Assembly: GCF_037975245.1 (NCBI RefSeq)
Contig: NC_092564.1
Span: 27,262,984 to 27,326,983, forward strand
Length of the DNA: 64,000 bases
Direction: 5' to 3'
Source: Apostichopus japonicus
Taxonomy: Eukaryota; Echinodermata; Holothuroidea; Aspidochirotida; Stichopodidae
Shown here: positions 29,577 through 63,315 of the stretch, one piece after another
How positions within the stretch are numbered: the first letter of the stretch is position 1
Layout: every line of letters begins with the position of its first letter
Notes under the pieces: model-generated
Databases searched by the model: none
What the model saw: the letters and a program-made list of their open reading frames with translations, nothing else
Told to the model about the DNA's origin: nothing
Made by a program: the position numbers and the translations under genes

Positions 29577-29822
29577 TCAATCAGAATCCTCTGGTGGTTT
29601 ATTGGCATATTTGGCTTTCCTTATCATTTCTAATTTCCTTCTGGCCTCTTGTAGTTCTTTTTCTTTCTTAAGGATCATCTCCTGAGCTTCTATTTCTACA
29701 GCTATATTGCCAACCATCTTCTTGCCAATCTCCACGCTGACCGCTTCCTCTTCTTGCATTGCTGCTTGCTGTGCTGCTGCCACCAAATGTTCCGATGCCT
29801 TCTTCACTGCATTACCCGCAGC
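29577..29822 (-). CDS. TLN: Talin exon 20 (terminal): dimerisation helix
   Basis: 81 codons plus TGA. AAGNAVKKASEHLV finishes R13; the rest is a charged helix (EMILKKEKELQEARRKL) that dimerises talin. The tail KPPEDSD differs from the vertebrate ending. The acceptor is tttctgcag. Confidence 0.93.
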   Translation of the reverse strand, partial: AAGNAVKKASEHLVAAAQQAAMQEEEAVSVEIGKKMVGNIAVEIEAQEMILKKEKELQEARRKLEMIRKAKYANKPPEDSD

Positions 29823-41800: not shown

Positions 41801-44800
41801 AACTACACTATAACTACCTTTGCTAATTTTTGGTGCTTACTGCTCCTGCAACAACATCTTGAGCAGTTACTTTAGTAATGTTCCAGTTACTGGCTAGTAT
41901 ACCAAAGGTAACCTAAACAGGTATATGACTTACCTCTGGTGCTATTATTGTTCCTTGTGCAGCATACCTAAGGTAACCTAAACAGGTAGATGACTTACCT
42001 CTAATGCTACTGATATTATTGCTGCTAGCATAACATAGGTAACCTTACCAGGTAGATGACTTACCTCTGGTGCAATTAATATAATTGTTCCTTGTGCAGC
42101 ATACCTAAGGTAACCTAAACAGGTAGATGACTTACCTCTGGTGCTGTTGACGCAATCGCTCCTCGTGCACCATTTGATAATTTGCTATAGTCATGTGACA
42201 AGTTGTTTGCTAGTGTTCCAAGCTCTCCAACGTTACTATTAGCTTTGGTGATCTAGTGAGAAAAGAAAAAAGTCAGCTATAAGAGATAAAATATTACTCA
42301 CAAAAAAAAGCCACTGATTATAAGAACTCAAACCTCTTCTATCAACTGATTATTCAAAAATAATGATAATTACCATAAAAATGAATGTAAAGTGTTCAAG
42401 ATCAGAACTCAGGCTTGGTTCCAAATTTCAAACAACAGTGGCAGATTTTAACTCTATTTGTACAACATAATTTCAACTGCTGTGTCCTCACTTTGCAGTG
42501 GTACCCCCCCCCCCATATGTGTGAGAAATATTCAAACATAACCCCACATACTGCAACATTTGGTGGTCCTACAAAAAGGAAATTTTTTCCTCAACTTTTC
42601 GCTGATTTTTCAAAACTCCTGTAATATGGAAGATATTTCAATCTGATATTGCTATCAATGCCGTCCTGAGCATTACTCGGTTATTAACTTTTGTTCTGGA
42701 AACAACTGTTGCATGTAAAGTACGTAACTCATTCTAAATATGAGAACCGATCAGCTGTTCCTACTGCCATTCATATGCAAGACTGATATTTTGAATCACT
42801 TACAAATCACTGACAAGTGAAAGGAGTAGGTTAGGCTATGAGAGAGACTTTAAATGATAAATTCAATAATTTTATGTGACCTGGAAGCTAGAAACATTCG
42901 CTGATGAAGTTATTTCCAAATCAAGTTCTTTGTCAGCTTAACTATTTAAATTTTGTGACACTTTATGGCTTTTACCAATTGATTGCCCATAGATGATGAT
43001 ATAATGTAAGCTCTGTCCACATTAAATATTCATTTTTCAATTTTTTCTCTGTTTACTCCAAACTAATAGAGTCTCTCACCATGTCTTGCGAGGTTCTGAT
43101 GATGGCATTCGCCGTCTGCACCATGTCTGTTTGATACGCCACAAACTCACCGGCTTCGTTCTCTGGAAGAGGCTCGTCAGTCTGAATAAGAATATTTGCA
43201 TACGACTATCTAATGGCAATTCATTTCATGAAAAAACCTGAAATCACACAATACAAGACTGAGTGTCAAACATACAAGAATTCAGAATTAACCGATACAT
43301 CGATGAAGAATTGATTCGGTAGAAAATGTTGTCACAAAAACAAAATTGTTTTTCATGGAGGAGAAATTACACTACTGGACCACTAATTACCTATCAGGTC
43401 AAGCATAGTAATAGAAATCTATTTATGGATCTGCCAACCAATAATCAGTGTAGGTTATGATTCTTATGATATGATTAACAGACTTTATTCCTTGGTTTGG
43501 GATGTTCCTAATAACATCTCAAAAAGGAATCAATGCACACAAAACATAAAACTTTTTCTTCTTGGTTTTTGAGATGAAAGCAAAAAGGCTTGGAAGATTT
43601 CAGTTTACACTTATAGGAACATTCAAAGTGAAATCATATTTAGTAGAAAAATTATCTAACCCCCAAAACTTCCTTAAGAATGTAATTTATTTCATATTTC
43701 AAGGTAAGATTCCTGATTGCAGCATAGGTGGAATGCTCCAGTCGCACCATAAACCAAACATTTTCTCGGACAGGATGGTGAAGGGTGAATTAAAGATCCC
43801 GAATCAGACTCACCACGATAATAGCCTTGGAGATGCTATCCAGCATGGGCGTGACCATACCATATTCACTGGCAGTCTCCTCAAGGGTATTCATGAGATC
43901 TTGTATACCATCCAACATGCCTGCTGCTGCCTCTTCAATGTCAGGATGTACCTTGGTAGCCTAAGGTGGAGTAACAAAACAACCAAAACTGGCAAGTTTT
44001 CCTTTTAATTTGTGGGGAAAGAACATCAAAAGTTCACACCCAACTTGTAATATTTTGTAAGTCTTTTGAAGGACATGTCCATCGTTAGTAATTCTATCGA
44101 AAGACTTTAAATTCTCAACGATTTTAGATATGTGGTATAGGCTCACCCTGTACCTTATTTTTAACCTCTCTTGACAAAAGAGGCAAGTTACTGGGCCTAA
44201 TTCAACCAAAATTTTGCTGACATTTGTGAACCAAAATTATTGGTGACATTTTTGACCAAGGCAGGAGAATTTCCACGAAAACTTCAACTTTGCATTTTAT
44301 TTTAAACTTTGTCTAATTTGGACATTTCATTTTCACTCAACTGCAAATATTTCTTTGCAATACAAACATATAGCAAAAATTCTAACAAGTTCTTATTTGA
44401 ACCACCCTTACCTTCCATCACACCTATCCTTCGCCCACACTCCTGACCCCACCTTCCCCCTCCCCCCTTCCCCTTCCCCAATTCACCTTCCCCCAAAGAA
44501 ATGGCAAAGGTATAGGAGAGAAATAACAATATTGAGGTACAAACCTTTGGATTGCCGCCCCCTTCTTTGGAGGCATAGAGAAGCTGCAAGGCACACTCTG
44601 CTACAGTCTTAGATTGGTCCAATAATGCCATCTGTTTCTGTGAGTTGATACTCTTAGAAGCTGCTCCAATGGCATTCCTTGTTAATGGATGGAAGTAGTT
44701 GGCCATAGACGTCACCTGTAAGTAAAAGCATTAAACAGTTGAATGTGCGGTCAAACATGTTTATTTCAATCTGATGCAATAGTTAAACATTAATTGGGCC

Positions 44801-45973
44801 AAAATTTAGCTTGAAGTATTTATAAGTAGCCACATGGATCTTTCAAGACACTTTCAAGCCTCTCTGTTGGTGTTAGTTGCTTATAGCTTGTCCCTTTCAG
44901 ATATCATCTAACAGAAACTATTGTGTGACTTTGTTGTATTAATGTAATAATGGATGTTTCAATCTTAAGAAAAATTCTGTAGCTTTGAAAAAGAAAAGCA
45001 TTAAATCATATCCTAGACCTACTGGGCTACCATAGTAGAGATATCTAGCATAGTCTACTGATAATTCATGTGTCATTGCCAGTAATAACCAACAATTGTG
45101 CCATCTTTCAGAAAAAAGATAAAAGTCAAAGTTCTTGTATAGAATACTGCTAAATTAATTTCATAGGTGATAAAGACTAATTGTTGTTAAACTTGGTCAC
45201 AATTTAATAAGTTCCTTAGTAAGAGACTTAGTAAAGTAATGGATCATTAAAAGATAACCAGATATAAATACACATTTAACAAACCTTTTAGCAACCATCG
45301 ACAATGGAAAATATTAAAAAGGATAGATACAAGATTCCTCTAACAAGAATATTAATAAAAGAATAACATATATGTAGTCTGGGTGAATGAGTTAAAACAA
45401 AATATAAGTTGTCTTCAAACATAAAACAAAAGAGAAAATAAAAACAACCCTGCTAGATATTGTAGCCTGAGCAGTAACAGTTGAGAAGGACTCTCTATTA
45501 CTATCACTGTAAGATATAAACAGCTACAGGAGGCAATGACTCTTAACTAGTTCAAAGTAACACTACAACATTTAACGGCACAAATCATCCAGGTTCTCCT
45601 GACTAGCTTATACTACAGTGTACGTAATACTACAGTGAAGAGATTAATTGAACTTACGGAGTGACCAAGCTTTTCGGCGTGTTCTTTAGCCGCATCTTCC
45701 ACCTTCTTCACCGTGTCCTTGAGAGCGGCGGCGCTGTTGCTGAGCTGTTCCGTGAAACCCTGAAGTGAAAACCGTAGAGTAAGTCAAATAGTATCAAATC
45801 GAAAAAATCCAGCTGTTATCACCATCTGGTGGTAAACGACGCGACAAAGTTGCACCAAATCGCCAATTTAGTGGAGGTTCACAAGTAAATATGATAATTT
45901 CAAAAATGCAGTGTGGTTTAAATTCCTACAGGGCATTGCTGGCTAGAAATTGAATTAGCCACTGGCCTTCTGC

Positions 45974-46004
<31 letters not shown>

Positions 46005-49000
46005 TTTTTTTCCCACCAGTTTTAAGTTTAGGTATGTAAATAGTGCTGAATCAACAGCCAAACAACTGCAACATTGCAAAACTAGCTGAGAGGTTTCACA
46101 AGATTTTTTTCAAAATAACAGTTGACCCTAATACTTTGAATTTACAAATAAGAGGGTTAAAAATATACATTTGGTGTAAAAATGTGCAACAAAATTGCAA
46201 ATATTATTAACCACAAAAAACAAGAAATATCAAAATTCTTCTGCCACACCCCAGCCCTTCTCTTTCAATTCCCCCCCCCCCTCCTCATCTCCCTACTCAT
46301 GCAGCCCTCACCCAGACAGATATTTCTATCAAAGCAGTCCATGTTCAATCAAACTAGAATAAAGCAGATATTATATCTTATAGTTATGTACAAATTTATC
46401 ACACATAGAACACGGATGATGGCACTGGTAAAATGTGTACATTAAACAAGGACTGGCAGTTGAATGTCTATTAAAGAAACCACTTTGATCACGAGACATG
46501 CATTATATATAAATAAATAATATATTATGTACATTTTTCATTTATTTTGGCATTAAATCAATACTCCTGTGTTACAGTCAAATTTAGTTCCATACCATAC
46601 CAATACCATAAAGAAAATTTGTTAACAGTTTCAATTCTTCATCTGTATGCATTATTTTGTGGATTGACTTCTTAAACCAATTATCTACAAGTATTAATGA
46701 TTTATCTAATTATGCTAAAATATTAGTTCAGGAAAAAGGAGAAAGAAATGCCTATATGAAATAAGTTTATCAATCCAGAGAATAGTTTAAAAATGTTGGT
46801 TATTTATGAAGAAAAAATATGTTTGAAAGGTTAGTTTATTTAAATGACAAAATATGGCTGATGGATTAGTTCACCTGCAACCAATGGTCAATAGAGATGT
46901 TTTCCTTCGTAACCTAAATTTACACACATACCAATAAGTCAACCAATGCTTTAAATGTAATTTTTTCTTATGTCTATCTATAATTTTTAATCTCATTACA
47001 AGAACTCATGATAGTATTAAAACCAATATAATAAAATCAGACTAGTATGTGCAAGTTAACCCAAAAGTTGGAATCAAGGCTAAAAATTCAACATAAATGC
47101 CATATTCACGCTTTTCCAAGGTTTGGAAATCTTTCACAGTCTTTACAAACCTGGTCAGACATAAGCATATCATTCATTGACCCCTAAGTCATAGTTTAGC
47201 TCCAACCTTTGCTTTTCAGATTAACAATTTTCTCGTTAATAGAATCCAACATGTGCATCTCACATTGGGTACAGTCTACGAGAAATAGGCTACATGGCGA
47301 ATAAAAAAAGGGCATTTCTCTTCGCATCGTAAACAACTTCATGGTCTTCGGTTCTACGGCGGGTAATCTCCACTGGTTTGATTGCTATATATACCATATA
47401 TACCATATATGTATAACACAGTGTATTTAACTATCTGGTTACACAATCTGCTTACAAGTCCCATTGTACACTCATACATTTGCTTCTGGGCTTTCATTAT
47501 ATCTACATTTATATACTACTATATACTGTGGAATGGTACATCTCTATGGTTAACCTACATGGAAATATGAGGACTGAGTTTAATAATGTTAATTATGGCA
47601 GGGTATATGGTGACAACATGAATACTAGGTTAACACATAAAACATGAATACTAACTAGGACATCACACAAACATGAATACTAGGACGACACATAAACACA
47701 ATCACAGAAACATGGCTCGACCTCTTTATCCAACTCATTAATCTCGAGCAATAGGAAATGTAGATAGATTGCATGCAAGCCGTCTGGATTACAATGTGAA
47801 GCTGTTTGACTAATAATTGTACCGCAAGACTGTACAAAGAATCGTGAGACCTTTACATGCAGGTCACACACACATAGCAGGGAATATAATATCATCCGGT
47901 ATCGCATCGCAAAATGCTATGCAAAATGGGCAAAGATGTGTAGCAGTTTATTTGTACACAGGTACCATAGTTTATGCTGAAGAGACAAACTTAAAGACAT
48001 TGGAGACTCGCCCCAAACCGTGTGCCGCCCTCTGCTAAAGTTAAATTTCCGTTGCTTGCAAGTGAAGTTTTCTTCTTGTCACTACAAACTGCAGACAGTA
48101 ATTAACGTGATACCTTGTTATCTTTTATATGGACCTGAGATCAGGTATTTCCATAACAACTCCCTGCTGAGATTTCCATCGCTGCTATGTACACTGTGTT
48201 GTGGGTTTTTACCATTGCTGCATGTATTGACTGTACACTAGTGTCTAATTACCGACTGGGATCGATGGTGGTGTCTAACACTTCTGTTACGCCTCATTCA
48301 CAAGTTAGGTCAGAATACCGGCATCAGAAGTTTCTTTGTGCGTGAGTCTTCAACGCCTTTAAGGGCCTTGAAACTGCTATGTCCACAATCCACTTTGAAC
48401 ATTAAATTACTCCCAGCATTGAGACAAGTATGAGCAGTATATTGTACAAAGATCTACTATACTCCACAGGTATATTTAACATGGCCAACATACAAGCAAA
48501 GAATTGCACTGGTAGCAACCGGTAAAAACAGGAATATTACAGGAATATTACAAGAATATAACAGGAATATTACACAGTCTAGACACCATCAATCTTGTGT
48601 TGGTTCCATGGTACATAACCAAAAGGTAAATAACATGGCTAACATACAAGCAGAGATTTGTACTGTTATCATCTGATATATACAGGAATATTACACAGTC
48701 TAGACACCATCAATCTTGTGTTGGTTCCATGGTACATAACCAAACAGGTAAATAACATGGCCAACATACAAGCAGAGATTTGTACTGTTATCAACTGATA
48801 TATACAGGAATATTACACAGTCTAGACACCATCAATCTTGTGTTGGTTCCATGGTACATAACCAAATGGAAATTAACATGGCTAACAAACAAGCAAAGAT
48901 TTGTACTGGTATCAACTGGTATATACAGGAATATTACAGCATCAAGACACCATGGATAACCTGCACTGGTTTTAATGGTATATGTACAAATGGTACACAT

Positions 49001-52000
49001 AGCAAGAACAACACACAAGTAATACAGGCTTTAAGCCTTAGTATGTGTTGACTGCCACAATATAATAGTTCCATACAGTGTAGTTATCATAGGTAGGATT
49101 AACATATTTCTTTTGGTTGAAAAGTTAGCAATAAGTTAGTACTTAGTGTTACTGTTTATTTTCACGTCATACCTACTAAAATACTAATATCGCGAGATAA
49201 CCACATTAACCGTCATGTTGGTACTTGTTACACAGTTTCTTGTGCCAAGTGCTTGGAGCTAACATGCAGCCATCAATCATGTAACTTGTGTTTGCCAAAT
49301 GAAAATAGAAGTATGCTATACAACACATATTTGTGGGGCACAAAAATGTATAACTGCTAAATAATGTAGTCACATAGCTCTCATTGTTGGAATAATGCAT
49401 AACCAATATGTGACATATGAGATGGCTAATGTAACCTTACAATGATAAGTATATTATAATGTACTATCCTACTACAGTGATATGATATGTAATACAGTGT
49501 ACATGAAATAATCATGATAATGGCTAATATTACCTTACAATATATTATAAAGTATACATAATGTACTATCCTACTACAGTGGATGATATGTAATACAGAG
49601 TACATAAAATAATCATGATAATGGCTAATATTACCTAACAATACATTATAAAGTATATTATAATGTACTATCCTACTACAGTGGATGATAGTAATACAGT
49701 GTACATAAAATAATCATGATAATGGCTAATATTACCTTACAACACATTATAAAGTATATTATAATGTACTATCCTACTACAGTGGATGATATGTAATACA
49801 GTGTACATAAAATAATCATGATTATGGCTAATGTTACCTTACAATACATTATAAAGTATATTGCACTATCCTACTACAGTGGATAATATGTAGCACAGTG
49901 TACATAAAATAATCATGATTATGGCTAATGTTACCTTACAATACATTATAAAGTATATTATAATGTACTATCCTACTACAGTAGATGATATGTAATACAG
50001 TGTACATAAAATAATCATGATTATGGCTAATATTACCTAACAATACATTACAAAGTATATTGCACTATCCTACTACAGTAGATGATATGTAATACAGTGT
50101 ACATAAAATAATCATGATAATGGCTAATATTACCTTACAATACATTATTAAGTATATTATAATGTACTATCCTACTACAGTGATATGATATGTAATACAG
50201 TGTACATAAAATAATCATTATAATGGCTAATATAACCTAACAATACGTTACAAGGTATATATTCTAATGTAATATCCTACTACAGTGGAGGATATGTGAT
50301 ACCGTGTACATAAAATACCATGATAATATTACCTTACAATACATTATAAGTATATTTATTATTATTACTTAAATGGAACATTTAGATCCCAGAGGATGGG
50401 ATATATATTAGCTAAATATACACAGAGGATGTGATATCTAACAGCTAAGTAGAGCTAAAGATACACAGAGGATGGGATATCTAATAGCTAAATATACAGA
50501 GGATGGGATATCTAATAGCTAAATATACAGAGGATGGGATATCTAACAGCTTAATAAACAGAGGATGGGATATCTAACAGCTTAATGAACAGAGGATGGG
50601 AAATCTAACAGCAAAATATAGCTAAATATAAACAGAGGATGGGATATCTAATAGCTAAATATACAGAGGATGGGATATCTAATAGCAAAATATAGCTAAA
50701 TATACACAGAGGATGGGATATCTAATAGCTAAATATACACAGAGGATGGGATATCTAACAGCTTAATAAACAGAGGATGTGAAATCTAACAGCAAAATAT
50801 AGCTAAATATACACAGAGGATGGGATATCTAATAGCTAAATATACAGAGGATGGGATATCTAATAGCTAAATATACAGAGGATGGGATATCTAACAGCTT
50901 AATAAACAGAGGATGGGATATCTAACAGCTTAATGAACAGAGGATGGGAAATCTAACAGCAAAATATAGCTAAATATACACAGAGGATGGGATATCTAAT
51001 AGCTAAATATACAGAGGATGGGATATCTAATAGCAAAATATAGCTAAATATACACAGAGGATGGGATATCTAATAGCTAAATATACACAGAGGATGGGAT
51101 ATCTAACAGCTTAATAAACAGAGGATGTGAAATCTAACAGCAAAATATAGCTAAATATACACAGAGGATGGGATATCTAATAGCTAAATATACAGAGGAT
51201 GGGATATCTAATAGCTAAATATACAGAGGATGGGATATCTAATAGCTAAATATACAGAGGATGGGATATCTAACAGCTTAATAAACAGAGGATGGGATAT
51301 CTAACAGCTTAATGAACAGAAGATGGGAAATCTAACAGCAAAATATAGCTAAATATACACAGAGGATGGGATATCTAACAGCTTAATAAACAGAGGATGT
51401 GAAATCTAACAGCAAAATATAGCTAAATATACACAGAGGATGGGATATCTAATAGCTAAATATACAGAGGATGGGATATCTAATAGCTAAATATACAGAG
51501 GATGGGATATCTAATAGCTAAATATACAGAGGATGGGATATCTAACAGCTTAATAAACAGAGGATGGGATATCTAACAGCTTAATGAACAGAGGATGGGA
51601 AATCTAACAGCAAAATATAGCTAAATATACACAGAGGATGGGATATCTAATAGCAAAATATACAGAGGATGGGAAATCTAACAGCAAAATATAGCTAAAT
51701 ATACACAGAGGATGTAATATCTAATAGCTAAGTATAGCTAAATATACACAGAGGATGTAATATCTAATAGCTAAATATACAGAGGATGTGATATCTAACA
51801 GCTTAATATAGCTAAATATATACAGAGGATGTTATATCTAACAGCTAAATATAGCTAAATATGCACAGAGGATGTAATATCTAATAGCTAAATATACACA
51901 GAGGATGGGATATGTAACAGCTTAATATAGCTAAATATATACAGAGGATGTTCTATCTAACAGCTAAATATAGCTAAATATACACAGAGGATGGGATATA

Positions 52001-55000
52001 TAACAGCTTAATACAGCTAAATATATACAGAGGATGGGATATCTAATAGCTAACTATACAAATGATGGGATATCTAACAGCAAAATATACAGAGGATGGG
52101 ATATCTAACAGCTTAATTTACACAGAGGATGTTATATATGTAACAGCTAAATATAGCTAAATATACACAGAGGATGTGATATCTGACAGCTAATTATACA
52201 CAGAAGATGGAATATGTAACAGCTAAACTTACATGAGTATACATATTATCCCAGAGAATGGGACTGCTATTATTATTGCCATCCATGGCTTTCCTAGTCC
52301 ACAATCGGCCTCAGTTATATCCACATAAATGAACCACAAGCCCAGGTATGTCCCCTCCCTTAAATAACAACAAGTATTTCACCAGGAGATCACATCCACA
52401 ACAGACACCATAGGAAATACTTCACTACAATTATAATCAATTCAACACATGCTTGATGCCATATATGGATAATTAGGTGGGAAAACTACGACACATCTAA
52501 AACGTGTCCTCATCGCAGATATTTAAAAACTTGATCTACTGGGAAAGAGTCTATCCCACTTACAAAAGGAAGCAATGGTTACCTCAAGAACTTATTAAAA
52601 CCATTGACCTGTACGACTTAGGCCAAAAGTCACACACAGGGTTCTTCACGAAGGAAGGAATAACCATTAAAAGAAGCATTTCTTAACACGAAAGGGATGA
52701 AAAGGGAAAGGGTACTTCCTAAGGTAGGTTCTGCTGTGCACAAATCAATTTAATGATAAACCATGTTTATAAACATAACGTATTGGAAAGAAACAGTCGA
52801 GGCATTTTTCCAAGATATATTTCTAATTCTACTGAAAGTTGAGGATTTATTTTGTAACTATTTCATTTGAAATTTGTATTCCATTGTACCACCCACTGTG
52901 AGAAATGCAGTGTCTAGTCTATGTTAAAAGATATGAATACATTTTCAATCAACAGATGTGCTTCTGATTTGTTGTTATTATTATTGTTTTCATTTTTTTA
53001 TTACTATTATTTTTGGGGGGGAGGTAGGTTAAGGCTTTACCACACCAATACTACAGTAGTATGTTAAAACATTGTGCATAAAAGCATTATAACTGTAAAT
53101 TGTTTTGATATTGTGCTTGTTATTGCAAAGACACTTGAGAACTGCTACTCTTTTGCTTCATGCAGTAGTAGTTTGTGTAGTGTAAATATTAAAGAAGATT
53201 AGCACGAAACAGCCACAAATGCCTTCCAACAACGAAAAAGATAATCAGGTTGGTTTTTGCATTTCTCCTCTTGATTTTGATAGGTTTGTTTCCCGGAGTA
53301 ACCCAAAACACACACCCCCAAAATATGATGAAGAGGAGGTTTAAAAGAGGAGGAGGATGGAGAGAGACAGAGAGAGAAAGATGACACACACCCCTGGTGA
53401 TCTCCCAGGGTCCTCCTGGGAGGATGAGAAGGTTGTTAAGATGCACAGAGTATGATTTTGGCTAGGTATACTGTTCATTCGTAGCAGCGATAGCAGGCAG
53501 GCCTTGGCGGATAATTCCTCATGATGGCCAGGCTCATGGGGACACATACCTTTAACTCCTCACTCTCCATATAAAAAGATAGGTCCCCTTTGAGGGTGGG
53601 GACCAGCACCTGTGCCGGACCACTCTCGCCCAATGAGGGTTTACGTAACTGGACTTTAGCAAAGGACACAAAACGATAGACGTGGATGCCAACAAATCGC
53701 TCGTACATGCAGAGGTCTTCACCAACCTGGTATGAGAAGCAGGGTCAAGAGAGGTCAAACAAGCCACAAACCCATCCTGCTGCTATCATCAACCAAACGC
53801 TGCCCCCTTCCCCCTCCCCTCCCCAATGTACTTTGTCAAAATACTAAGTGTACATGGGGATGGTGGTGTTCTTTTATACAAAATCATAGATCTGAGGATG
53901 GATTAAAAGACATACTTTTAAACTTTTTCTCCTTCCAAATTTTTTTCCTCCCTTCTATCTAGCTTGAATGTTTTAATTTGATTAAATAAAACTTTTGTAC
54001 TAAATGTTAGATTTGTTGAAAATCTTTTTTGGGAAAGTTATATCACAAATCTATGTATCGATGATGCAGGCTAGTCTGTGGATACAGTTTCTATGGATAA
54101 ACTGTTTACTAAAGCTAGAGAGTGGAATGAGCCATAGATGTTCTGACTAGTAGCTACTAGGCATCCTGGAATGCCATAGACCCCTTACGATCTCGAACTC
54201 TCCTAGAGCTGCGCAATGAGTTACGATGAAGACAGCTGCCTCATGGTGACCTCATGTCCTGTTAACATAAGAGATCATTTCACCAATCCAGTAGATAATC
54301 AAGAATTCTAAAAGTAACTTTGACACAATTGTCCCTTGTTGCATTCCTCGAGTCCAACCTCTCAAAGGTTTTTTATTCAAGAAAAGGATAATTATTTGAA
54401 AGACTCTGTCAACTGATTAACGTTATTCCACATCTAGATCTCTCTCTAATATATTCAGAAATCTCTCTCTTTCTTTCCCTCATTCGTGATAACTTTTGAA
54501 ACTGACAATGCTTGACAGAATGTTCACATTTTTGTTTTCACATTTCCCAAAAATTCAAGACTAGGGCTGTTCTCTAATCCAAAGTAATAACACATACTTA
54601 ATGCTAACAGGCATATGTGCACATTTTTACTCAGTAATAAACCTAGTCATAACATAAACATTCCAGGCATGCCCCTCCCAAACTCCTACCCAACTGGGGA
54701 GGGGAGGGGGAGGGGGTGGGGCAGAGGATTACATGGTATCACTGGCATAAAGATTAATTTTAAAGGTCAATTTTTTAATGCCATTAAGGTTTTCTACTTC
54801 CAAAACCCTAGCCATAATTCCCTCACCTAAAGCTTCCCTCACCTAAAGCTACCCTCCACCTGAAATTGGCTGAAAGAATACACGTTAGTGGAACTAATCA
54901 AAGAAAATGAAGTTCCCCCAGTGGCTGAGATGTGAGACAGTTTGCAAGGATGGTGCGACACTGACAGTAAGAGCCTAATGAAGAACAGTAAGAGTTTATA

Positions 55001-58000
55001 CAGTAAAGAGTTAATAACACCAATAAATCAAACTTATGCCCCTTTTTTATCTTTCTGCCTCGGTCTTCAACTCCATCTCTAGTTCTAAAAGTTGACTTTT
55101 TGTGAGTCGTAACTGGATGTTTAATTAGGGAAATCGATCCACCGATAACTGTTGCATGGCTCTTGATTATTTCCTACAATCTCTCAAAGAAACCAACAGA
55201 CAATTATCCTATCTTGTTCCACCAAGTTGCAGATCCTTCCTTAAATTCTTTCATGTTCAGTTGCGGGAGAGTAATAATATCTTTCGAGAACTGACATGGC
55301 CATTCAGAGAGGACAAAAATGTAGGTTTTACAAACAAGCATAGCGAGGTAAGAGGTGTCCGTGTAAACATCTCAGACATACTATAATAACATGCTGTACT
55401 GATTCACTGCTAGGTACATCACAATGAAACAAATGCTTAAAACATTAAAATGGTAATGACAGAAAATATGACCGGGGGGGGGGGGGTGGGGACGAGCGTT
55501 ATCCACGTATCTCTTGCGACATCTAGCAGACAGGCAGCGACACATAAAACTTTCAAACCTTTATCATTTCTGAAATTTCTATACTGGTCGGTCTGCGGTA
55601 CTTCCCTTTCTGCATGAAGTCCGTATTGAGAGACAGTGGAGAGAATGTTATGAAGCGTGCAGTATTGACAGGGTTGAAACGGACGATCACTGCATGTGTC
55701 ATGTGGTGTGAGTAAAGTGGAAGAACCTGGATGTCGTTTTGTGATTTGCTGAGGAAAAACCGACGTCTGGGTACGAGGGATGTCATCAAACGTGGAGGTA
55801 CCTTGCAGCATGGAAGGTTTAAATCTCCTTCATGCTCTGCTTTTCAAAGTCTTTCCCCCAGAGAAGCCAATTGTTGTGCTTTGTTGTTACCACTCGACAT
55901 GTAGGGATCAAACCTTTGAATCTGAAGTAATGTCAAACCACCACCCACTCACTACCTATAATTCAATTGTATCACTATTAAACCCAGCAGGCACAATACA
56001 CTAATGGAGAAGTTTTATTCCAGTGCCAAATATTATCTCCAATTCATATGTTTTTAAGGCCTGTGATGTATAAACTGTGGGGGGTTTTTGGACACAATTT
56101 TTTGGACACATTCAAGCCTAAAGCAATTCTTTCTCGATTGGCAAATTTTTGAAGATTTGTGAGAAACAAAAGGGCCTAACATTGGATGTATGGAAAGAAA
56201 ACAAACCGAAACTACCCAAAGAATGAAAAGTTTTGCCACTCACAGAATTCAATGTTGTTATGAGCAAATACTATGCTACTTGCACAGTGTACTAAACTAC
56301 CTCAATCAATTACTGCATTTTCAGCAAGAGACTTTTTGAAGGTAATCAGCGCTAGGGTATTAAGCTAGGCCAGGAGTCCCAGGAGGAGTATAAGGTGTTT
56401 AATGGTGGTGTGCATAGGGTGTGATGGGACATCCCAGGGGTGGGGCATCCCAGAGGTAGGGCATTCCAGGGGTGGGGCATCCCAGGGGTGGGAATCCCAG
56501 ATACCAAGTGCATACCAAGGTGTTGCATAAAGGTATCACAACAGTGGCACATAGGGAATCCCTGGTGGTGAAAAAGGCATCTCAGAGTGGTGCATATACA
56601 GTGAATGAAAGCAGCTAGCTGAAAGAAACATCACTACATGTCGTGTGCTTCAGGGAGGAAGTTTCGCTTGTGACACTACCCGACGTGGAAAGGAATTTGC
56701 AAAGACGAGTGTTAGATTGGGAGAGTTGTTAAAAGAAGTGACACCAATGAACTTGGATGTGTTGGCAATGTGTTACTCAGTATATATAATATACACATAG
56801 ATACAGGGCTCATGCTCCTATGAGATGCTGTAGGTGAGGTTATCGTGACTTCTACCGACCAACATTAAGGAATATCACATTATTGTGGTTAGATCATCAA
56901 GGTATACAATATTGTTATTATCACAGAGGGAAAGCTATGAGAGTAACCTAGCAACCCTTACATAAACGGCACATGTAACCCAAACCCTGAAAATTACAAT
57001 CTGCCATATAACATCAAGAACACTTTTTTAGGTGGGATATAATGGTTTACAGCTAATACCAGCACTGATGAGGTGAGTGATTGTCCAATCCAATCATAGT
57101 ATACAATAAAAGACTCTTGAATATTCATGAAGAGTTTTTTGGACTGATGCAAGTGTAACTTCCTTAGCCAGCTTGAAACATCTAGTTTTCCTGAAATCTT
57201 TCATCTATGTGCCGTCCAAACTACCACATCTCGTCTCACTGGATCTGTTTCTACGTGCCCTCCTGATTACTTTACCTTCCACACAGCAAGGTTCATTTAA
57301 AGGAGGTATAATCCAACAGCACTTTTCCTCGATCTATCATCTCTACTCATCCCTCTTACTACCGCATGCACGGAATACATTTAGGGAATGCTAAAACCTG
57401 GCAGTATGCTTTAGGATCATATGTACCTACAATAACATACTGCTGCACCTACCTACCCATACACAAAATCAAAACTCCCCACAGAATGAAAGATGTTAGA
57501 TGCAATCAGCTACATTAGAAGAGAAAAGCAGGGAGGTTAAGATTCCTACCTGGAAGTTGTTGCCTTCCATCGGCGGTAGATTGCTGCCCATGGCTTCCAG
57601 CGATGCACTGTCCAGATCTCGAATAGACTGGTTGATCTTCTCAATCGCTTCGTCGCATTCGGCCTGACCTGGGGCACGATCCCTGTAATGTACAGAATAA
57701 ATATTGTTTATATTCTCTGCACAATCCCCGTCCATGTTCCGAAATAGATATGATCTCAATCATGCCAATACTTTTACTTTGAATTATGTCTTTTTGCAGC
57801 TGGCCAGCGAAATACGACTGCCTTGCAGGTAGCGCTCATCGGTTAGGTTTGTAATATTGAAATGGTTAAGTTCACTTACGGTCCATACGAAGGAATCCTA
57901 CTTCTGCTCAAATAAGGATATTCTAGTGAATTCTGGAAAGCCTCCAAAAAACCCCCATAGGCCTAGACACGTTTCTCCTATTAAACCTGAAATTTACTCT

Positions 58001-61000
58001 GATAGCACTAAAACTGAAACATAGATAATTTTGAGTGAATTCAAATAATCTGAGCACCACCAATGTAACTCAATCACGACAAAATCCTTCGCTGGATATA
58101 GCAGGTCAGTTTATAATTCATTTGTGCCAAAGATTCCCCCGGGATGAAACAATTCCAACAGATACCCTCTCCTGAGAGGTTAGTAACATGCTCAAGAGCA
58201 ACGCTTGCAGACACATTGTTAAGGTGTTTCATAGAAACCCACCCAGTGTTCAACAGGACCACAAATGAAATCCGATCCAGATGAAAAAGTGAACTGATCA
58301 GAAATACTCAGCTGAGACAAATTTCAGAACCAGGTTAAATAGGCATGGAAACACAACGTGCTGTCAGAATGTTAAAATCATAACATAAGTATGCTTAAAG
58401 TGTCTTAATCATTGATGTATTGGTCAAATTTTAAAACTTTTATTTCCTTAAATGCAAAAAGTGATCTGTTTCTTATTGAGCATCTATTCATTCCAACTAC
58501 TTCATTTATGAAAATTGTTTTAAAAAAAGTTTTCATGAAGATATTATGTACTTGTTGACTGCAGGTCGAAGATTCCATCAAGGAAGGAGTCTAATATGGA
58601 TAAAAGGCGGGCAACTCAACCTAGCAAGATTGAGGAGTTATGACATCGGTGTGTCGTATTTGACTTGACAAACAGGTCAAGGGTCAACTTACTTGATAGA
58701 ATGGACAAGATTCTTGATGGAGTCTGAGACCTGCTTGGAGTTGGCAGCCAGGAGTTTCCAGGTGGGTGGGTCGTCTGGGTTCATTCCGAGTGGTTTGGCT
58801 GTCTGGATGAGGGAGCTGGAGCTAGCGATCATGGTTTTACCAGCGGTGATGATCGGTTCCATAGCCATGCGGGCCTGGAGAGGGAACGACATCAAATATA
58901 AACAAAACGGAGAGACAGAGAGAGATGTACCACAGAAGTGAGTGGATGATCAGCTACTACTAAGCAATTCCAAATTAACTAAACCATTGATGAAACAAAG
59001 AGACCAAGAAAAGGCTTTTCCCAAGTTTATGGGCTGCTGAGAACCTTTTCTCAATAGCACTTGGACACACATGAGTTGTGTTCATATTAACATAGACCTC
59101 ACTGACAGAGAGGGATAGAAGCTTACTGGGTGGGAAGCAAATACAATAGCTATACCTGGTTGGTATGCCAGCACACTATAATTTCATGATACTATTGGCC
59201 CTCACCTGTGGTGTGATCCTGGCTGGTACACTAGCAAACTATAATTTCATGATACTATTGGCCCTCACCTGTGGTGTGATCCTGGCTGGTACACTAGCAA
59301 ACTATAATTTCATGATACTATTGGCCCTCACCTGTGGTGTGATCCTGGCTGGTACACTAGCAAACTATAATTTCATGATACTATTGGCCCTCACCTGTGG
59401 TGTGATCCTGGCTGGTACACTAGCAAACTATAATTTCATGATACTATTGGCCCTCACCTGTGGTGTGATCCTGGCTGGTACACTAGCAAACTATAATTTC
59501 ATGATACTATTGGCCCTCACCTGTGGTGTGATCCTGGCTGGTACACTAGCAAACTATAATTTCATGATACTATTGGCCCTCACCTGTGGTGTGATCCTGG
59601 CTGGTACACTAGCAAACTATAATTTCATGATACTATTGGCCCTCACCTGTGGTGTGATCCTGGCTGGTACACTAGCAAACTATAATTTCATGATACTATT
59701 GGCCCTCACCTGTGGTGTGATCCTGGCTGGTACACTAGCAAACTATAATTTCATGATACTATTGGCCCTCACCTGTGGTGTGATCCTGGCTGGTACACTA
59801 GCAAACTATAATTTCATGATACTATTGGCCCTCACCTGTGGTGTGATCCTGGCTGGTACACTAGCAAACTATAATTTCATGATACTATTGGCCCTCACCT
59901 GTGGTGTGATCCTGGCTGGTACACTAGCAAACTATAATTTCATGATACTATTGGCCCTCACCTGTGGTGTGATCCTGGCTGGTACACTAGCAAACTATAA
60001 TTTCATGATACTATTGGCCCTCACCTGTGGTGTGATCCTGGCTGGTACACTAGCAAACTATAATTTCATGATACTATTGGCCCTCACCTGTGGTGTGATC
60101 CTGGCTGGTACACTAGCACACTATAATTTCATGATACTATTGGCCCTCACCTGTGGTGTGATCCTGGCTGGTACACTAGCAAACTATAATTTCATGATAC
60201 TATTGGCCCTCACCTGTGGTGTGATCCTGGCTGGTACACTAGCACACTATAATTTCATGATACTATTGGCCCTCACCTGTGGTGTGATCCTGGCTGGTAC
60301 ACTAGCAAACTATAATTTCATGATACTATTGGCCCTCACCTGTGGTGTGATCCTGGCTGGTACACTAGCACACTATAATTTCATGATACTATTGGCCCTC
60401 ACCTGTGGTGTGATCCTGGCTGGTACACTAGCAAACTATAATTTCATGATACTATTGGCCCTCACCTGTGGTGTGATCCTGGCTGGTACACTAGCAAACT
60501 ATAATTTTATGATACTATTGGCCCTCACCTGTGGTGTGATCCTGGCTGGTACACTAGCAAACTATAATTTCATGATACTATTGGCCCTCACCTGTGGTGT
60601 GATCCTGGCTGGTACACTAGCAAACTATAATTTCATGATACTATTGGCCCTCACCTGTGGTGTGATCCTGGCTGGTACACTAGCAAACTATAATTTCATG
60701 ATACTATTGGCCCTCACCTGTGGTGTGATCCTGGCTGGTACACTAGCAAACTATAATTTCATGATACTATTGGCCCTCACCTGTGGTGTGATCCTGGCTG
60801 GTACACTAGCAAACTATAATTTCATGATACTATTGGCCCTCACCTGTGGTGTGATCCTGGCTGGTACACTAGCACACTATAATTTCATGATACTATTGGC
60901 CCTCACCTGTGGTGTGATCCTGGCTGGTACACTAGCAAACTATAATTTCATGATACTATTGGCCCTCACCTGTGGTGTGATCCTGGCTGGTACACTAGCA

Positions 61001-63315
61001 CACTATAATTTCATGATACTATTGGCCCTCACCTGTGGTGTGATCCTGGCTGGTACACTAGCACCCTATAATTTCATGATACTATTGGCCCTCACCTGTG
61101 GTGTGATCCTGGCTGGTACACTAGCACCCTATAATTTCATGATACTATTGGCCCTCACCTGTGGTGTGATCCTGGCTGGTACACTAGCAAACTATAATTT
61201 CATGATACTATTGGCCCTCACCTGTGGTGTGATCCTGGCTGGTACACTAGCACACTATAATTTCATGATACTATTGGCCCTCACCTGTGGTGTGATCCTG
61301 GCTGGTACACTAGCACACTATAATTTCATGATACTATTGGCCCTCACCTGTGGTGTGATCCTGGCTGGTACACTAGCAAACTATAATTTCATGATACTAT
61401 TGGCCCTCACCTGTGGTGTGATCCTGGCTGGTACACTAGCAAACTATAATTTCATGATACTATTGGCCCTCACCTGTGGTGTGATCCTGGCTGGTACACT
61501 AGCAAACTATAATTTCATGATACTATTGGCCCTCACCTGTGGTGTGATCCTGGCTGGTACACTAGCAAACTATAATTTCATGATACTATTGGCCCTCACC
61601 TGTGGTGTGATCCTGGCTGGTACACTAGCAAACTATAATTTCATGATACTATTGGCCCTCACCTGTGGTGTGATCCTGGCTGGTACACTAGCAAACTATA
61701 ATTTCATGATACTATTGGCCCTCACCTGTGGTGTGATCCTGGCTGGTACACTAGCAAACTATAATTTCATGATACTATTGGCCCTCACCTGTGGTGTGAT
61801 CCTGGCTGGTACACTAGCAAACTATAATTTCATGATACTATTGGCCCTCACCTGTGGTGTGATCCTGGCTGGTACACTAGCAAACTATAATTTCATGATA
61901 CTATTGGCCCTCACCTGTGGTGTGATCCTGGCTGGTACACTAGCAAACTATAATTTCATGATACTATTGGCCCTCACCTGTGGTGTGATCCTGGCTGGTA
62001 CACTAGCAAACTATAATTTCATGATACTATTGGCCCTCACCTGTGGTGTGATCCTGGCTGGTACACTAGCAAACTATAATTTCATGATACTATTGGCCCT
62101 CACCTGTGGTGTGATCCTGGCTGGTACACTAGCAAACTATAATTTCATGATACTATTGGCCCTCACCTGTGGTGTGATCCTGGCTGGTACACTAGCAAAC
62201 TATAATTTCATGATACTATTGGCCCTCACCTGTGGTGTGATCCTGGCTGGTACACTAGCAAACTATAATTTCATGATACTATTGGCCCTCACCTGTGGTG
62301 TGATCCTGGCTGGTACACTAGCACACTATAATTTCATGATACTATTGGCCCTCACCTGTGGTGTGATCCTGGCTGGTACACTAGCACACTATAATTTCAT
62401 GATACTATTGGCCCTCACCTGTGGTGTGATCCTGGCTGGTACACTAGCAAACTATAATTTCATGATACTATTGGCCCTCACCTGTGGTGTGATCCTGGCT
62501 GGTACACTAGCAAACTATAATTTCATGATACTATTGGCCCTCACCTGTGGTGTGATCCTGGCTGGTACACTAGCAAACTATAATTTCATGATACTATTGG
62601 CCCTCACCTGTGGTGTGATCCTGGCTGGTACACTAGCAAACTATAATTTCATGATACTATTGGCCCTCACCTGTGGTGTGATCCTGGCTGGTACACTAGC
62701 AAACTATAATTTCATGATACTATTGGCCCTCACCTGTGGTGTGATCCTGGCTGGTACACTAGCAAACTATAATTTCATGATACTATTGGCCCTCACCTGT
62801 GGTGTGATCCTGGCTGGTACACTAGCAAACTATAATTTCATGATACTATTGGCCCTCACCTGTGGTGTGATCCTGGCTGGTACACTAGCAAACTATAATT
62901 TCATGATACTATTGGCCCTCACCTGTGGTGTGATCCTGGCTGGTACACTAGCAAACTATAATTTCATGATACTATTGGCCCTCACCTGTGGTGTGATCCT
63001 GGCTGGTACACTAGCAAACTATAATTTCATGATACTATTGGCCCTCACCTGTGGTGTGATCCTGGCTGGTACACTAGCAAACTATAATTTCATGATACTA
63101 TTGGCCCTCACCTGTGGTGTGATCCTGGCTGGTACACTAGCAAACTATAATTTCATGATACTATTGGCCCTCACCTGTGGTGTGATCCTGGCTGGTACAC
63201 TAGCAAACTCTGGAGATGATGCAAATGTAACCAGACTATCAACAGCTTCCAATAATGGTCTTGTGGCCTGAGCACAGTTTTGTCTGTTAACATCGGTGAA
63301 ATTACCATCCAAATC
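29577..63315 (-). CDS. TLN: Talin, C-terminal 992 residues (rod R9 to dimerisation helix), 20 exons, 5' part outside the window
   Basis: Twenty exons splice in phase with GT-AG borders and match vertebrate talin through the rod: R9, R10, R11, R12, the R13 I/LWEQ actin-binding module and the dimerisation helix. Telling segments are KPLLEAVD-like RPLLEAVDSL, VSDSIKNLVHSIK, DLDTTIMFASAGTL, VEDEATRGTRALEAT, DWVDPEDPNVIAENELL, LDFEEQILEAAK, DGQWSMGLISAARKV and LLVACKVKAD. The protein ends EDSD after a coiled-coil helix. Talin couples integrin tails to F-actin; R9 also binds the head F3 domain to autoinhibit it, and R13 with the C-terminal helix forms the dimeric actin site. Three exon ends (exons 1, 8 and 12 of this set) are tandemly duplicated across the donor site. 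The orthologue could be called TLN1 or TLN2; invertebrates usually have one. The head and R1-R8 lie beyond position 64000. Confidence 0.95.
30279..30352. repeat. 21-bp minisatellite, 3.5 copies
   Basis: Units start TACCATC at 30279, 30300, 30321 and 30342. The array lies in talin intron 19 and is imperfect. Confidence 0.8.
30565..30810 (-). CDS. TLN: Talin exon 19: core of R13
   Basis: 82 codons containing EDGQWSMGLISAARK, the I/LWEQ signature region, and LLVACKVKAD. The acceptor is ctttgtcag, the donor CAG|gtaagt. Confidence 0.95.
31479..31604 (-). CDS. TLN: Talin exon 18: R13
   Basis: 42 codons, EADESLDFEEQILEAAK through AQRELVQQGK, almost identical to vertebrate talin. The acceptor is aattgaag, the donor AAG|gtaagg. 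Confidence 0.95.
32437..32561 (-). CDS. TLN: Talin exon 17: R13
   Basis: It completes the split Gly codon of exon 16, then encodes SDWVDPEDPNVIAENELL and a KKLSQLRPRQKAR end. The acceptor is gttaccag, the donor AGG|gtaggt. Confidence 0.93.
32562..37111. other. Talin intron 16 (4.5 kb)
   Basis: No exon is supported. The stretch has poly-G tracts near 33630 and 33895 and a loose repeat built on ATCATCAGTT at 34894-35044. Vertebrate talin sequence is contiguous across this junction. Confidence 0.6.
34894..35044. repeat. Degenerate 20-22-bp tandem repeat
   Basis: About seven imperfect copies of a unit like CACACAATATCATCAGTT. It is decayed, and unit borders are approximate. Confidence 0.65.
37112..37217 (-). 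CDS. TLN: Talin exon 16: R13
   Basis: 35 codons plus one base: NVKQPSQDGRQKLASESKRV to TAELLK and the first base of Gly. The acceptor is cttgtag, the donor G|gtattg, an untypical gtatt donor. SKRVA and TAELLKG match the vertebrate region. Confidence 0.9.
37990..38094 (-). CDS. TLN: Talin exon 15: R13
   Basis: 35 codons, GASNTAETPELKQR to RVLLQQVQA. This is one of the less conserved pieces but occupies the expected place and phase. The acceptor is atttccag, the donor gtaagt. Confidence 0.87.
38453..38638 (-). CDS. TLN: Talin exon 14: start of R13
   Basis: 62 codons containing TPEDLIRSTKQVTLATAKAV and AGNSCKQEDIIAASN, close to vertebrate talin. The acceptor is ttgatag, the donor AGG|gtatgc. 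Confidence 0.94.
39048..39164 (-). CDS. TLN: Talin exon 13: R12
   Basis: 39 codons, TMVMNVTSLLKTVKSVEDEA to IVQEAK. The acceptor is ttccacag, the donor AAG|gtgagt. Confidence 0.94.
39299..39661. repeat. 33-bp minisatellite, 11 copies, spanning the talin exon 12 donor site
   Basis: On the talin strand each unit is the last 18 nt of exon 12 (LNESAK), the donor GTAAG and ten further intron nt ending in CAG. Copies are spaced 33 bp from 39301 to 39631; the exonic copy is at the high end. Most keep GTAAG; the copies whose donors fall near 39342+33 and 39573 read GTATGA, and the fifth has lost GT. Reading on from exon 12 adds 11 residues per copy (VRIQQLNESAK) for two copies before a TGA. Confidence 0.92.
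39639..39764 (-). CDS. TLN: Talin exon 12: R12
   Basis: 42 codons, VLLINAVKDVASALGDLISA to MKQLNESAK. The acceptor is aattccag. The end given is the first donor; identical donors follow every 33 nt, so the real end may be 33 or 66 nt further on. Confidence 0.88.
40482..40665 (-). CDS. TLN: Talin exon 11: R12
   Basis: One base plus 61 codons: ENIRKAAKALVEDTKTLV to LGGDDPEGQ. The acceptor is tttgacag, the donor CAG|gtaaat. Confidence 0.94.
41062..41231 (-). CDS. TLN: Talin exon 10: R11
   Basis: 56 codons plus two bases: ANYVMNALQAGSRGTQACID, SGIIGDLDTTIMFASAGTL and the FADHR end. The acceptor is ttttttcag, the donor AG|gtaggt. Confidence 0.95.
41569..41715 (-). CDS. TLN: Talin exon 9: R11
   Basis: 49 codons, VADRIKSTTQDLGHACHNLV to ARAVCEK, matching the RVQELGHGC region. 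The acceptor is ctcattag, the donor AAG|gtatgt. Confidence 0.93.
41908..42140. repeat. 65-71-bp tandem repeat, 4 copies, spanning the talin exon 8 donor site
   Basis: On the talin strand, donors CTTAC/GTAAG occur at the high-side borders 41934, 41999, 42065 and 42136; the last is the real exon 8 donor. Two of the extra copies repeat the exon end recognisably (AAQG..I..APE versus exon GARGAIASTAPE) and all repeat about 30 nt of following intron. The copies are diverged, so the duplication is older than that at exon 1. Use of an extra donor adds an in-frame TAG. Confidence 0.85.
42136..42252 (-). CDS. TLN: Talin exon 8: R11
   Basis: 39 codons, ITKANSNVGELGTLANNLSH to IASTAPE. The acceptor is ctcactag, the donor GAG|gtaagt. 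Three downstream near-copies of this exon end are present. Confidence 0.92.
43080..43181 (-). CDS. TLN: Talin exon 7: R10/R11 boundary
   Basis: 34 codons, TDEPLPENEAGEFVAYQTDM to TSQDM, matching the FVDYQTTMV stretch. The acceptor is cttattcag, the donor ATG|gtgaga. Confidence 0.92.
43814..43960 (-). CDS. TLN: Talin exon 6: R10
   Basis: 49 codons, ATKVHPDIEEAAAGMLDGIQ to SISKAIIV. The acceptor is ccaccttag, the donor GTG|gtgagt. Confidence 0.92.
44545..44715 (-). CDS. TLN: Talin exon 5: R10
   Basis: 57 codons, VTSMANYFHPLTRNAIGAAS to LLYASKEGGGNPK, highly conserved. The acceptor is acttacag, the donor AAG|gtttgt. Confidence 0.94.
45658..45759 (-). CDS. TLN: Talin exon 4: R9/R10
   Basis: 34 codons, GFTEQLSNSAAALKDTVKKV to HAEKLGHS. 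The acceptor is ttcacttcag, the donor TCC|gtaagt. LGHS continues into exon 5 as in vertebrate LGHKV. Confidence 0.9.
45978..46004. repeat. (GT)n microsatellite
   Basis: About 13 uninterrupted GT dinucleotides followed by a run of T, in talin intron 3. Confidence 0.95.
48479..48960. repeat. About 120-bp tandem repeat, 4 copies
   Basis: Copies of a unit starting AACATGGCCAACATACAAGC and containing CAGTCTAGACACCATCAATC. The second and third are nearly identical; the first and last are more diverged. Confidence 0.9.
49423..50350. repeat. About 100-bp tandem repeat, 9 to 10 copies
   Basis: Units contain ATGGCTAATATTACCTTACA, TACTATCCTACTACAGTGG and AATACAGTGTACATAAAATA, with small deletions. It follows the 120-bp array directly and runs into the next one. 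Confidence 0.9.
50380..52230. repeat. Higher-order minisatellite built on CAGAGGATGGGATATCTAA
   Basis: Roughly fifty short units of about 28-45 bp, each with CAGAGGATG and a TAGCTAAATATA or CAGCTTAAT linker. Blocks of several unit types recur in the same order around 50.6-51.6 kb, showing higher-order duplication. Both edges are more decayed. Confidence 0.92.
53475..53726 (-). CDS. Unrecognised exon-like segment nested in talin intron 3 (second of two)
   Basis: After a good acceptor (ctcataccag) the frame starts VGEDLCMYERFVGIHVYRFV and stays open for 83 codons to TGA, ending CYRCYE. A donor-like AAG|gtatgt at 53549/53550 would instead end it after 59 codons, phase 0. The composition is strand-like and hydrophobic, unlike the talin rod. 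I do not recognise the family. It joins in phase to the segment at 55559-55801, so both may belong to a gene nested in the talin intron, or be optional exons, or a relic. Confidence 0.4.
   Translation of the reverse strand, partial: VGEDLCMYERFVGIHVYRFVSFAKVQLRKPSLGESGPAQVLVPTLKGDLSFYMESEELKVCVPMSLAIMRNYPPRPACYRCYE
55559..55801 (-). CDS. Unrecognised exon-like segment nested in talin intron 3 (first of two)
   Basis: An 81-codon stretch, open and phase 0 at both ends, between acceptor ctgcaag and donor AAG|gtttga. It begins VPPRLMTSLVPRRRFF, includes SHHMTHAVIVRFNPVN and ends SIEISEMIK. No signal peptide or known motif is seen. Coding appearance rests on length, splice sites and a plausible residue mix. 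No upstream start exon was found. Confidence 0.4.
56426..56500. repeat. 16-17-bp tandem repeat, about 5 copies
   Basis: Units like GGGGCATCCCAGGGGTG in tandem, in talin intron 3. Confidence 0.85.
57550..57682 (-). CDS. TLN: Talin exon 3: R9
   Basis: One base plus 44 codons: DRAPGQAECDEAIEKINQSI to EGNNFQ. The acceptor is acattacag, the donor CAG|gtagga. Confidence 0.93.
58693..58874 (-). CDS. TLN: Talin exon 2: R9
   Basis: 60 codons plus two bases: ARMAMEPIITAGKTMIASSS, NPDDPPTWKLLAANS and VSDSIKNLVHSIK. The acceptor is cctctccag, the donor AA|gtaagt. R9 is the autoinhibitory partner of the talin head. Confidence 0.95.
59174..63205. repeat. 63-bp minisatellite, exactly 64 copies, spanning the talin exon 1 donor site
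   Basis: 4032 bp divide exactly into 64 units of 63 bp. Variation is almost confined to one codon-sized position (52 units AAC, 10 CAC, 2 CCC on the plus strand) and a single C/T change near 60509. On the talin strand each unit is the last 33 nt of the exon (FASVPARITPQ), the donor CAG|GTGAGG and 30 nt of intron ending TATAG. The unit at the high end includes the real exon end. A decayed partial copy precedes the array at about 59153-59173. The array makes up about 94% of this intron. Assemblies often collapse such arrays, so the true number may be larger. Confidence 0.97.
63175..63315 (-). CDS. TLN: Talin exon 1 of this window: start of R9
   Basis: 47 codons: DLDGNFTDVNRQNCAQ, then RPLLEAVDSLVTFASSPEFA and the end VPARITPQ. 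The acceptor is gttttag, the donor CAG|gtgagg. Its last 33 nt begin the 64-copy array, so 63 further identical donors follow downstream; only the first gives full-length talin, because each extra unit adds an in-frame TAG. Confidence 0.93.

Follow-up and report, generated by a model that had tools for sequence, protein, structure and literature searches.

A minisatellite across an exon-intron border of an Apostichopus japonicus talin gene and the choice among 64 identical splice donors

How is a splice site chosen when the donor of a coding exon is followed by dozens of exact copies of itself? The question is raised by a talin gene of Apostichopus japonicus, the C-terminal half of which lies on the minus strand of the window (the whole 64-kb stretch of DNA analysed here). 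Laboratory studies of donor choice have mostly dealt with two or a few competing sites. In the first intron modelled here (I1), 64 identical donors compete, the first of them not favoured in predicted accessibility, and sets of 11 and 4 compete elsewhere in talin, which makes the gene a natural test of a position rule.

The talin gene and its 64-unit array

By tblastn with an approximate human talin query, 18 exons of the gene were found in the window, and searches of the gaps added two more; exon borders were set from homology together with GT and AG signals, the ends of E6 and E15 being judged the least certain (Table 1). The N-terminal half was located in the adjoining 60 kb by tblastn with the same human query. 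The single open frame matches four Pfam families above cut-off (PF21865, PF08913, PF21896 and PF01608, covering rod, vinculin-binding and I/LWEQ domains), and in a PDB search with its first 290 residues 11 of the 12 sequences matched were named talin-1 (best E 4.2e-105). Judged by these Pfam and PDB matches, rather than by the approximate query, the gene is talin, as the initial annotation had proposed. The end of E1 corresponds to approximately residue 1592 of human talin (by the approximate reference sequence) and is covered by PDB chains 2x0c and 4w8p, whereas the match to 2kbb starts only at query residue 111. We take the first two chains to be talin R7-R8 and the third to be R9; on this assumption, the proposal that truncation would fall inside R9 does not hold.

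Table 1. Positions of the talin features within the window (a slash marks an exon-intron or intron-exon border)
Feature	Position	Strand	Details
Talin C-terminal half	29577..63315	(-)	20 modelled exons E1-E20 in one 992-aa frame, open as far as the stop codon
Talin exon E1, 141 nt	63175..63315	(-)	phase 0 at 3' end; acceptor GTTTTAG/GATTTGG; exonic part of unit 1 formed by the final 33 nt
Array 1, 64 units x 63 nt	59176..63207	(-)	each unit 33 nt exon end + 30 nt intron start; donor CAG/GTGAGG
Diverged half unit at the intron end of array 1	59155..59175	(-)	16/21 matches to the exonic part
Intron I1, 4300 nt	58875..63174	(-)	array is ~93% of its length
Talin exon E2, 182 nt	58693..58874	(-)	its skipping would shift the frame
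Talin exon E8	42136..42252	(-)	donor GAG/GTAAGT, repeated
Array 3, four donors (42135, 42064, 41998, 41933)	41893..42173	(-)	units 65-71 nt; exonic part diverged
Talin exon E12	39639..39764	(-)	donor AAG/GTAAGA, repeated
Array 2, 11 units x 33 nt (21 exon + 12 intron)	39298..39661	(-)	donors 39638 to 39308

TRF places array 1 at 59155-63209 (period 63, 64.4 copies, 99% matches, score 7977). Each unit joins TTTGCTAGTGTACCAGCCAGGATCACACCACAG (33 nt, exon) to GTGAGGGCCAATAGTATCATGAAATTATAG (30 nt, intron), that is, the last 33 nt of E1 to 30 nt of intron, so that the description of the unit as a talin exon end plus its 5' splice site proved correct. The first unit runs from 63207 to 63145 and the last from 59238 to 59176. 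The donor, CACCACAG followed across the border by GTGAGGGCC, occurs 64 times on the minus strand at a spacing of exactly 63 nt throughout, and exact matches to CACCACAGGTGAGGGCC also number 64 on that strand, with the donor G at 63174 down to 59205. This is the same array that had been placed at 59174-63205; the bounds differ because the register is ambiguous by 2 nt, an AG being common to both sides of the junction. The earlier count of 64 copies stands as a count of units, but comprises one genuine border and 63 copies of it: the first unit carries the genuine donor of the coding exon, as modelled by homology, and the later units are its copies. In size the array is a minisatellite (tandem units of 10-100 bp), at 63 bp x 64, as are the two further arrays of this gene (33 bp x 11 and 65-71 bp x 4).

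The near-identity of the units was borne out, with 52 of the 64 equal to the coding copy and 14 mismatching bases in 4032. Variation is confined to unit positions 0, 1 and 53: position 1 changes from T to G in 11 units, two of which also carry T to G at position 0, and one other unit has G to A at position 53. As first described, the 30-nt intronic part starts with GT, ends with AG and has an in-frame TAG as its last codon; each such piece ends in AG because an AG is common to the unit junction and to the exon just ahead of unit 1. The half unit beyond the last full one has P ~1.1e-6 for its fixed register, and a gapped local search of the array tail scored 22, within the reach of shuffled sequence (mean 15, highest 26). 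A search for an older unit deeper in I1 scored 20 at best, where shuffled sequence went up to 26. When copies of array 1 were sought elsewhere in the genome, among the matches listed all 30 lay inside the array itself.

An antisense frame of 1373 codons runs through array 1 on the plus strand (59150-63271) and repeats a hydrophobic 21-mer, ILAGTLANYNFMILLALTCGV. Pfam gave no match to it, and we take it as a by-product rather than a gene; it stays open along the array because the period of 63 nt is a multiple of three, which is probably the sole reason.

Consequences of donor choice

Use of donor 2, 3 or 64 of I1 would, by the reading frames, give ...ITPQ-VRANSIMKL-stop, with nine extra residues, and by repetition the same is true of every later I1 donor; donor 64 would produce an exon of 4110 nt with 63 in-frame stops. 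The earlier statement that any donor but the first truncates talin is thus supported. In I8, all three later donors run into a stop as well, and intact talin therefore requires the first donor of both I1 and I8. In I12, the frame survives at donors 2 and 3, whose use would lengthen talin by 11 or 22 residues (VRIQQLNESAK once or twice; 39573-39638, minus strand); donors 4 to 11 run into a stop.

One 9-nt donor sequence is common to all 64 units of array 1, with a U1 pairing energy of -11.6 kcal/mol; its strength is that of the consensus and joint strongest among the 19 modelled donors. In the eight units (of 64) that were modelled, predicted accessibility was 0.42-0.43 for the first donor against 0.44-0.46 for the others under two settings, and 0.32 against 0.44-0.47 under a third. 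The idea that RNA structure hides the later donors was rejected, since none of these predictions for the eight units prefers the first. With pairing energy equal and accessibility giving the first donor no advantage, strength and local structure cannot choose among the donors, and position can.

Short exons and longer introns form the regime in which exon definition is expected. The talin medians of 137 nt for exons (n=20) and 717 nt for introns (n=19) fit exon definition, under which distant donors would make very long exons. Our preferred reading, to which we give a probability of about 0.7, is that array 1 is a donor-straddling minisatellite, largely tolerated through use of the first donor. 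A 63-bp segment over the talin exon-intron border would have been duplicated in tandem, and the resulting array would then have expanded, with homogenisation, to its 64 units. Only the first unit completes an exon, one whose real acceptor lies 141 nt upstream, and pairing across the exon would favour donor 1, which could also have the advantage of being transcribed first. The array would then be removed as part of the 4.3-kb intron. A small fraction of transcripts probably takes donor 2 or 3, and these, ending in VRANSIMKL and a stop, should be degraded. That the talin frame is intact across I1 only with the first donor (donors 1, 2, 3 and 64 were read) counts in favour of its use.

A different outcome would be mini-exons within array 1. 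These could be 33-nt pieces in frame (FASVPARITPQ), separated by 30-nt introns, or smaller ones made through an AG inside the exonic part. The 33-nt piece is preceded by AG and followed by GT, with phase 0 at both ends. The 30-nt mini-intron of the initial annotation is nevertheless weak: as an acceptor the AG at the unit boundary is poor, scoring -2.1 against -1.6 to 14.5 for talin's own acceptors (median 7.8, n=20), with an upstream pyrimidine fraction of 0.40 against 0.77, and it follows from the two shared nucleotides of the junction. The internal AG, before unit position 20, has a score of 6.8, near the median of real acceptors, but its use would give 50-nt introns and 13-nt pieces that break the frame. 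To our knowledge, 30-nt introns are below the length that animal introns normally allow, which also argues against the longer pieces. We consider mini-exons of either kind highly improbable.

Two further repeated donors and the history of the arrays

Two additional talin donors are repeated (39.3-39.7 kb and 41.9-42.2 kb), neither of which figured in the initial annotation. The donors of array 2 read GTAAGA in 8 of 11 units and GTATGA in two, and one is broken. In array 3, mismatches affect 44 of 96 positions of the exonic part (compared without gaps, so that indels make this figure overstated), none of 27 donor positions and 7 of 87 in the adjoining intron. For each of the 19 introns modelled here, a 40-nt stretch centred on each splice site was compared with other sequence at a threshold of at least 26/40 (downstream, for donors); donor surroundings recurred in three introns (63 places in I1, 3 in I8 and 10 in I12), and acceptor surroundings in 0 of 19. 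Of the 95 matches to VAGGTRAG in the 89-kb talin span, 64 lie in array 1 and 76 in the three arrays together.

The wider survey used TRF arrays of period at least 10 whose consensus unit holds [ACG]AGGT[AG]AG. Within 124 kb (the window plus 60 kb upstream) 3 of 45 arrays carry this motif, all three at modelled talin donors; there were none among 16 arrays in 35 kb of a second talin gene, nor among 24 in ten 10-kb pieces positioned at round coordinates. No donor repeats were found at 27 further exon ends of the window's talin, which are approximate, coming from tblastn (27 of 32 rows, after removal of two that overlapped others and three inside the window). The second talin gene lies on C9 at ~31.62-31.65 Mb, with ~48-78% identity per exon match to the talin of the window. 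None of 15 exon ends, placed approximately, carries a donor array there (15 of 16 rows, one being dropped as on the wrong strand with stops), in covered sequence that stops short of the E1 counterpart. A weak acceptor-side match there (27/40) was set aside, as its sequence looks like an intronic repeat devoid of exon sequence.

TRF arrays of all kinds occupy 25% of the talin gene part. Under random placement of its 16 arrays (overlapping rows merged; a test run after seeing the data), a mean of 2.6 arrays fell on donors and likewise 2.6 on acceptors, with P=0.51 for at least three on donors. At least three on donors with none on the 20 acceptors had P=0.0011, and when no array was allowed to cover more than 40 coding nt, slightly above the 38 nt of the most intrusive one, at least three donor hits had P=0.006. 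Donor versus acceptor alone, three of three, gives p=0.125 (one half cubed). The repeats themselves are not chance; whether three arrays came to lie on donors by something other than chance is less clear. Tandem duplication directed to donors, in talin or genome-wide, by way of transcription, U1 or R-loops and beyond mere tolerance, would agree with the 3/19 donors against 0/19 acceptors in the window and with the two small P values. The pattern was nevertheless seen after the fact, one of those values depends on a limit set just above what was observed, and three donor hits are expected where no limit is imposed. The empty results at the 27 further talin ends, at the 15 ends of the second gene and in the ten 10-kb pieces also speak against directed duplication, and a donor bias could come from tolerance alone, so that we judge it improbable. 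Simple tolerance would, on the other hand, permit acceptor arrays too, and their absence from all 19 introns counts against our preferred reading, under which the two other talin donors would have been struck by the same process as that of I1.

Decoy donors were compared with their surroundings for a sign of function. In array 2 they show no extra conservation (mismatches 4/90 in decoy donors against 17/240 elsewhere in the unit, p=0.46), and in array 3 the comparison of donors with adjoining intron gives no clear extra conservation; the uniformity of array 1 leaves nothing to compare. Selection on the decoy donors was rejected as a candidate, finding no clear support in arrays 2 and 3.

The units of array 1 that carry the common variant are clustered, lying between units 14 and 50, and 8 of the 11 have another no more than two units downstream (P=0.0004; strictly adjacent pairs alone, P=0.058), as would be expected of unequal exchange or slippage. 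The variant is missing from both edges of the array (27 units, P=0.009) and sits in its middle. In tandem arrays the edges usually diverge most, and the variant-free edges run against that picture, which we count against the preferred reading. The variant pattern fits recent growth together with exchange that takes in the coding copy, and the near-identity of the units upholds the recent expansion or homogenisation proposed before. Since the end of the coding exon is itself part of the array, coding and decoy copies would evolve together, and with a coding exon end locked in a homogenising repeat, mutations of the decoys could be copied into the protein. Expansion driven by hairpins was rejected: folded as DNA, a two-unit stretch does worse than most shuffles (z +1.68; 191 of 200 shuffles at least as good).

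Inflation of a truly short array during assembly would also account for so many units, and near-perfect arrays are a classic trouble spot. We find this very unlikely, as the variant units are scattered with no fixed period and two shorter arrays of like design occur in the same gene. In addition, the published assembly of this species rests on HiFi reads with a mean length of 14.7 kb at ~64x (PMC10344927), long enough to span 4.06 kb if that assembly is taken as the source.

Known parallels, possible splicing control and other features of the window

The closest known system to array 1 is a VNTR in intron 18 of human ABCA7 (PMC5954066). There, 25-bp units, each beginning with the exon's donor, number from 12 to ~427; one unit is retained in ~2% of transcripts, a share unaffected by array length. 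Lower expression and more frequent skipping of exon 19, the next exon, accompany greater array length. Like array 1, it is a long tandem repeat at an exon-intron border with the exon's splice donor in every unit. Its 25-bp units run from the donor on and hold no coding exon, whereas the talin units hold 33 nt of coding exon and an in-frame stop and three donors of talin are affected. By this analogy, we would expect a leak of the same order (~2%) in I1 and, in long alleles, some skipping of E2 with its frame shift. The relation of array length to expression and next-exon skipping in ABCA7 makes full neutrality of array 1 doubtful.

In a DOK7 minigene, a donor deeper in the intron was preferred over an upstream one, the deeper donor being also the stronger; such a preference in talin would make array 1 harmful, which counts against our preferred reading. 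A minisatellite of the human gene 6-16 (IFI6, G1P3), reportedly the subject of work by Turri, Cuin and Porter in 1995, is said to interfere with splicing, and its repeat is said to be short, ~12 bp, unlike the 63-bp talin unit. Intron gain by tandem genomic duplication is a known process in which, as in array 1, sequence bearing a splice site is duplicated to give GT...AG segments; the 30-nt segments of array 1 differ in having no credible acceptor at their end, though the AG inside the unit scores 6.8. A further parallel comes from human genes in segmental duplications, where internal tandem repeats lie across exon-intron boundaries and alter splicing (PMC2812944). Like the talin arrays, these are minisatellite expansions over such boundaries; they differ in averaging units of 30 bp x 4 and in lying in recently duplicated genes. 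No talin array of this kind was found in the open-licence PMC literature, in searches other than ones pairing talin with tandem repeats. Arrays with a donor in each unit are already known from human genes, and the surprise lies in three of them in talin and in 64 exact donors with coding sequence in every unit.

The array could also act as a length-dependent damper, its decoys binding U1 and slowing or mis-setting the removal of I1, so that E2 is skipped or donor 2 or 3 is used, less full-length talin is made and allele length tunes expression. The behaviour of ABCA7 with array length points in this direction, as do the frame shift that skipping of E2 would cause, the stop after each later donor and the concentration of VAGGTRAG matches in the arrays. 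Against it stand the lack of clear selection on decoy donors where variation allowed a comparison, and a second talin gene that does without donor arrays at its 15 approximate exon ends, in sequence that ends before the E1 counterpart. We regard the damper as unlikely. The related suggestion of a splicing sink or tunable poison switch goes beyond what the conservation of the decoy donors supports, and the ABCA7 analogue retains one unit in only ~2% of transcripts, although its expression and next-exon skipping do vary with array length. More speculative, and in our opinion improbable, is graded splicing control by all three talin arrays (64, 11 and 4 copies), in which decoys would recruit U1, array length would set the amount of full-length talin and the 11-copy array could add 11 or 22 rod residues. 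If this were true, talin would amount to a dose series provided by nature, in which position alone decides the choice of donor. Should array length vary, talin dose could be affected, in a species that is farmed.

No RNA families or tRNAs were found within the 64-kb window. An open frame on its plus strand (4007-4348) resembles a GDSL-type lipase below threshold (PF13472, with E 0.00033 and 21.6 bits where the cut-off is 32.9), and the other 9 of the 10 frames searched had no match. Intron I3 (11.8 kb) contains large compound intronic arrays at 49422-52243, with 102-bp units followed by a mosaic of several periods, and a 57-bp array at 15267-15773 has a unit that contains the telomere-like CTAACCCTAACCCC.
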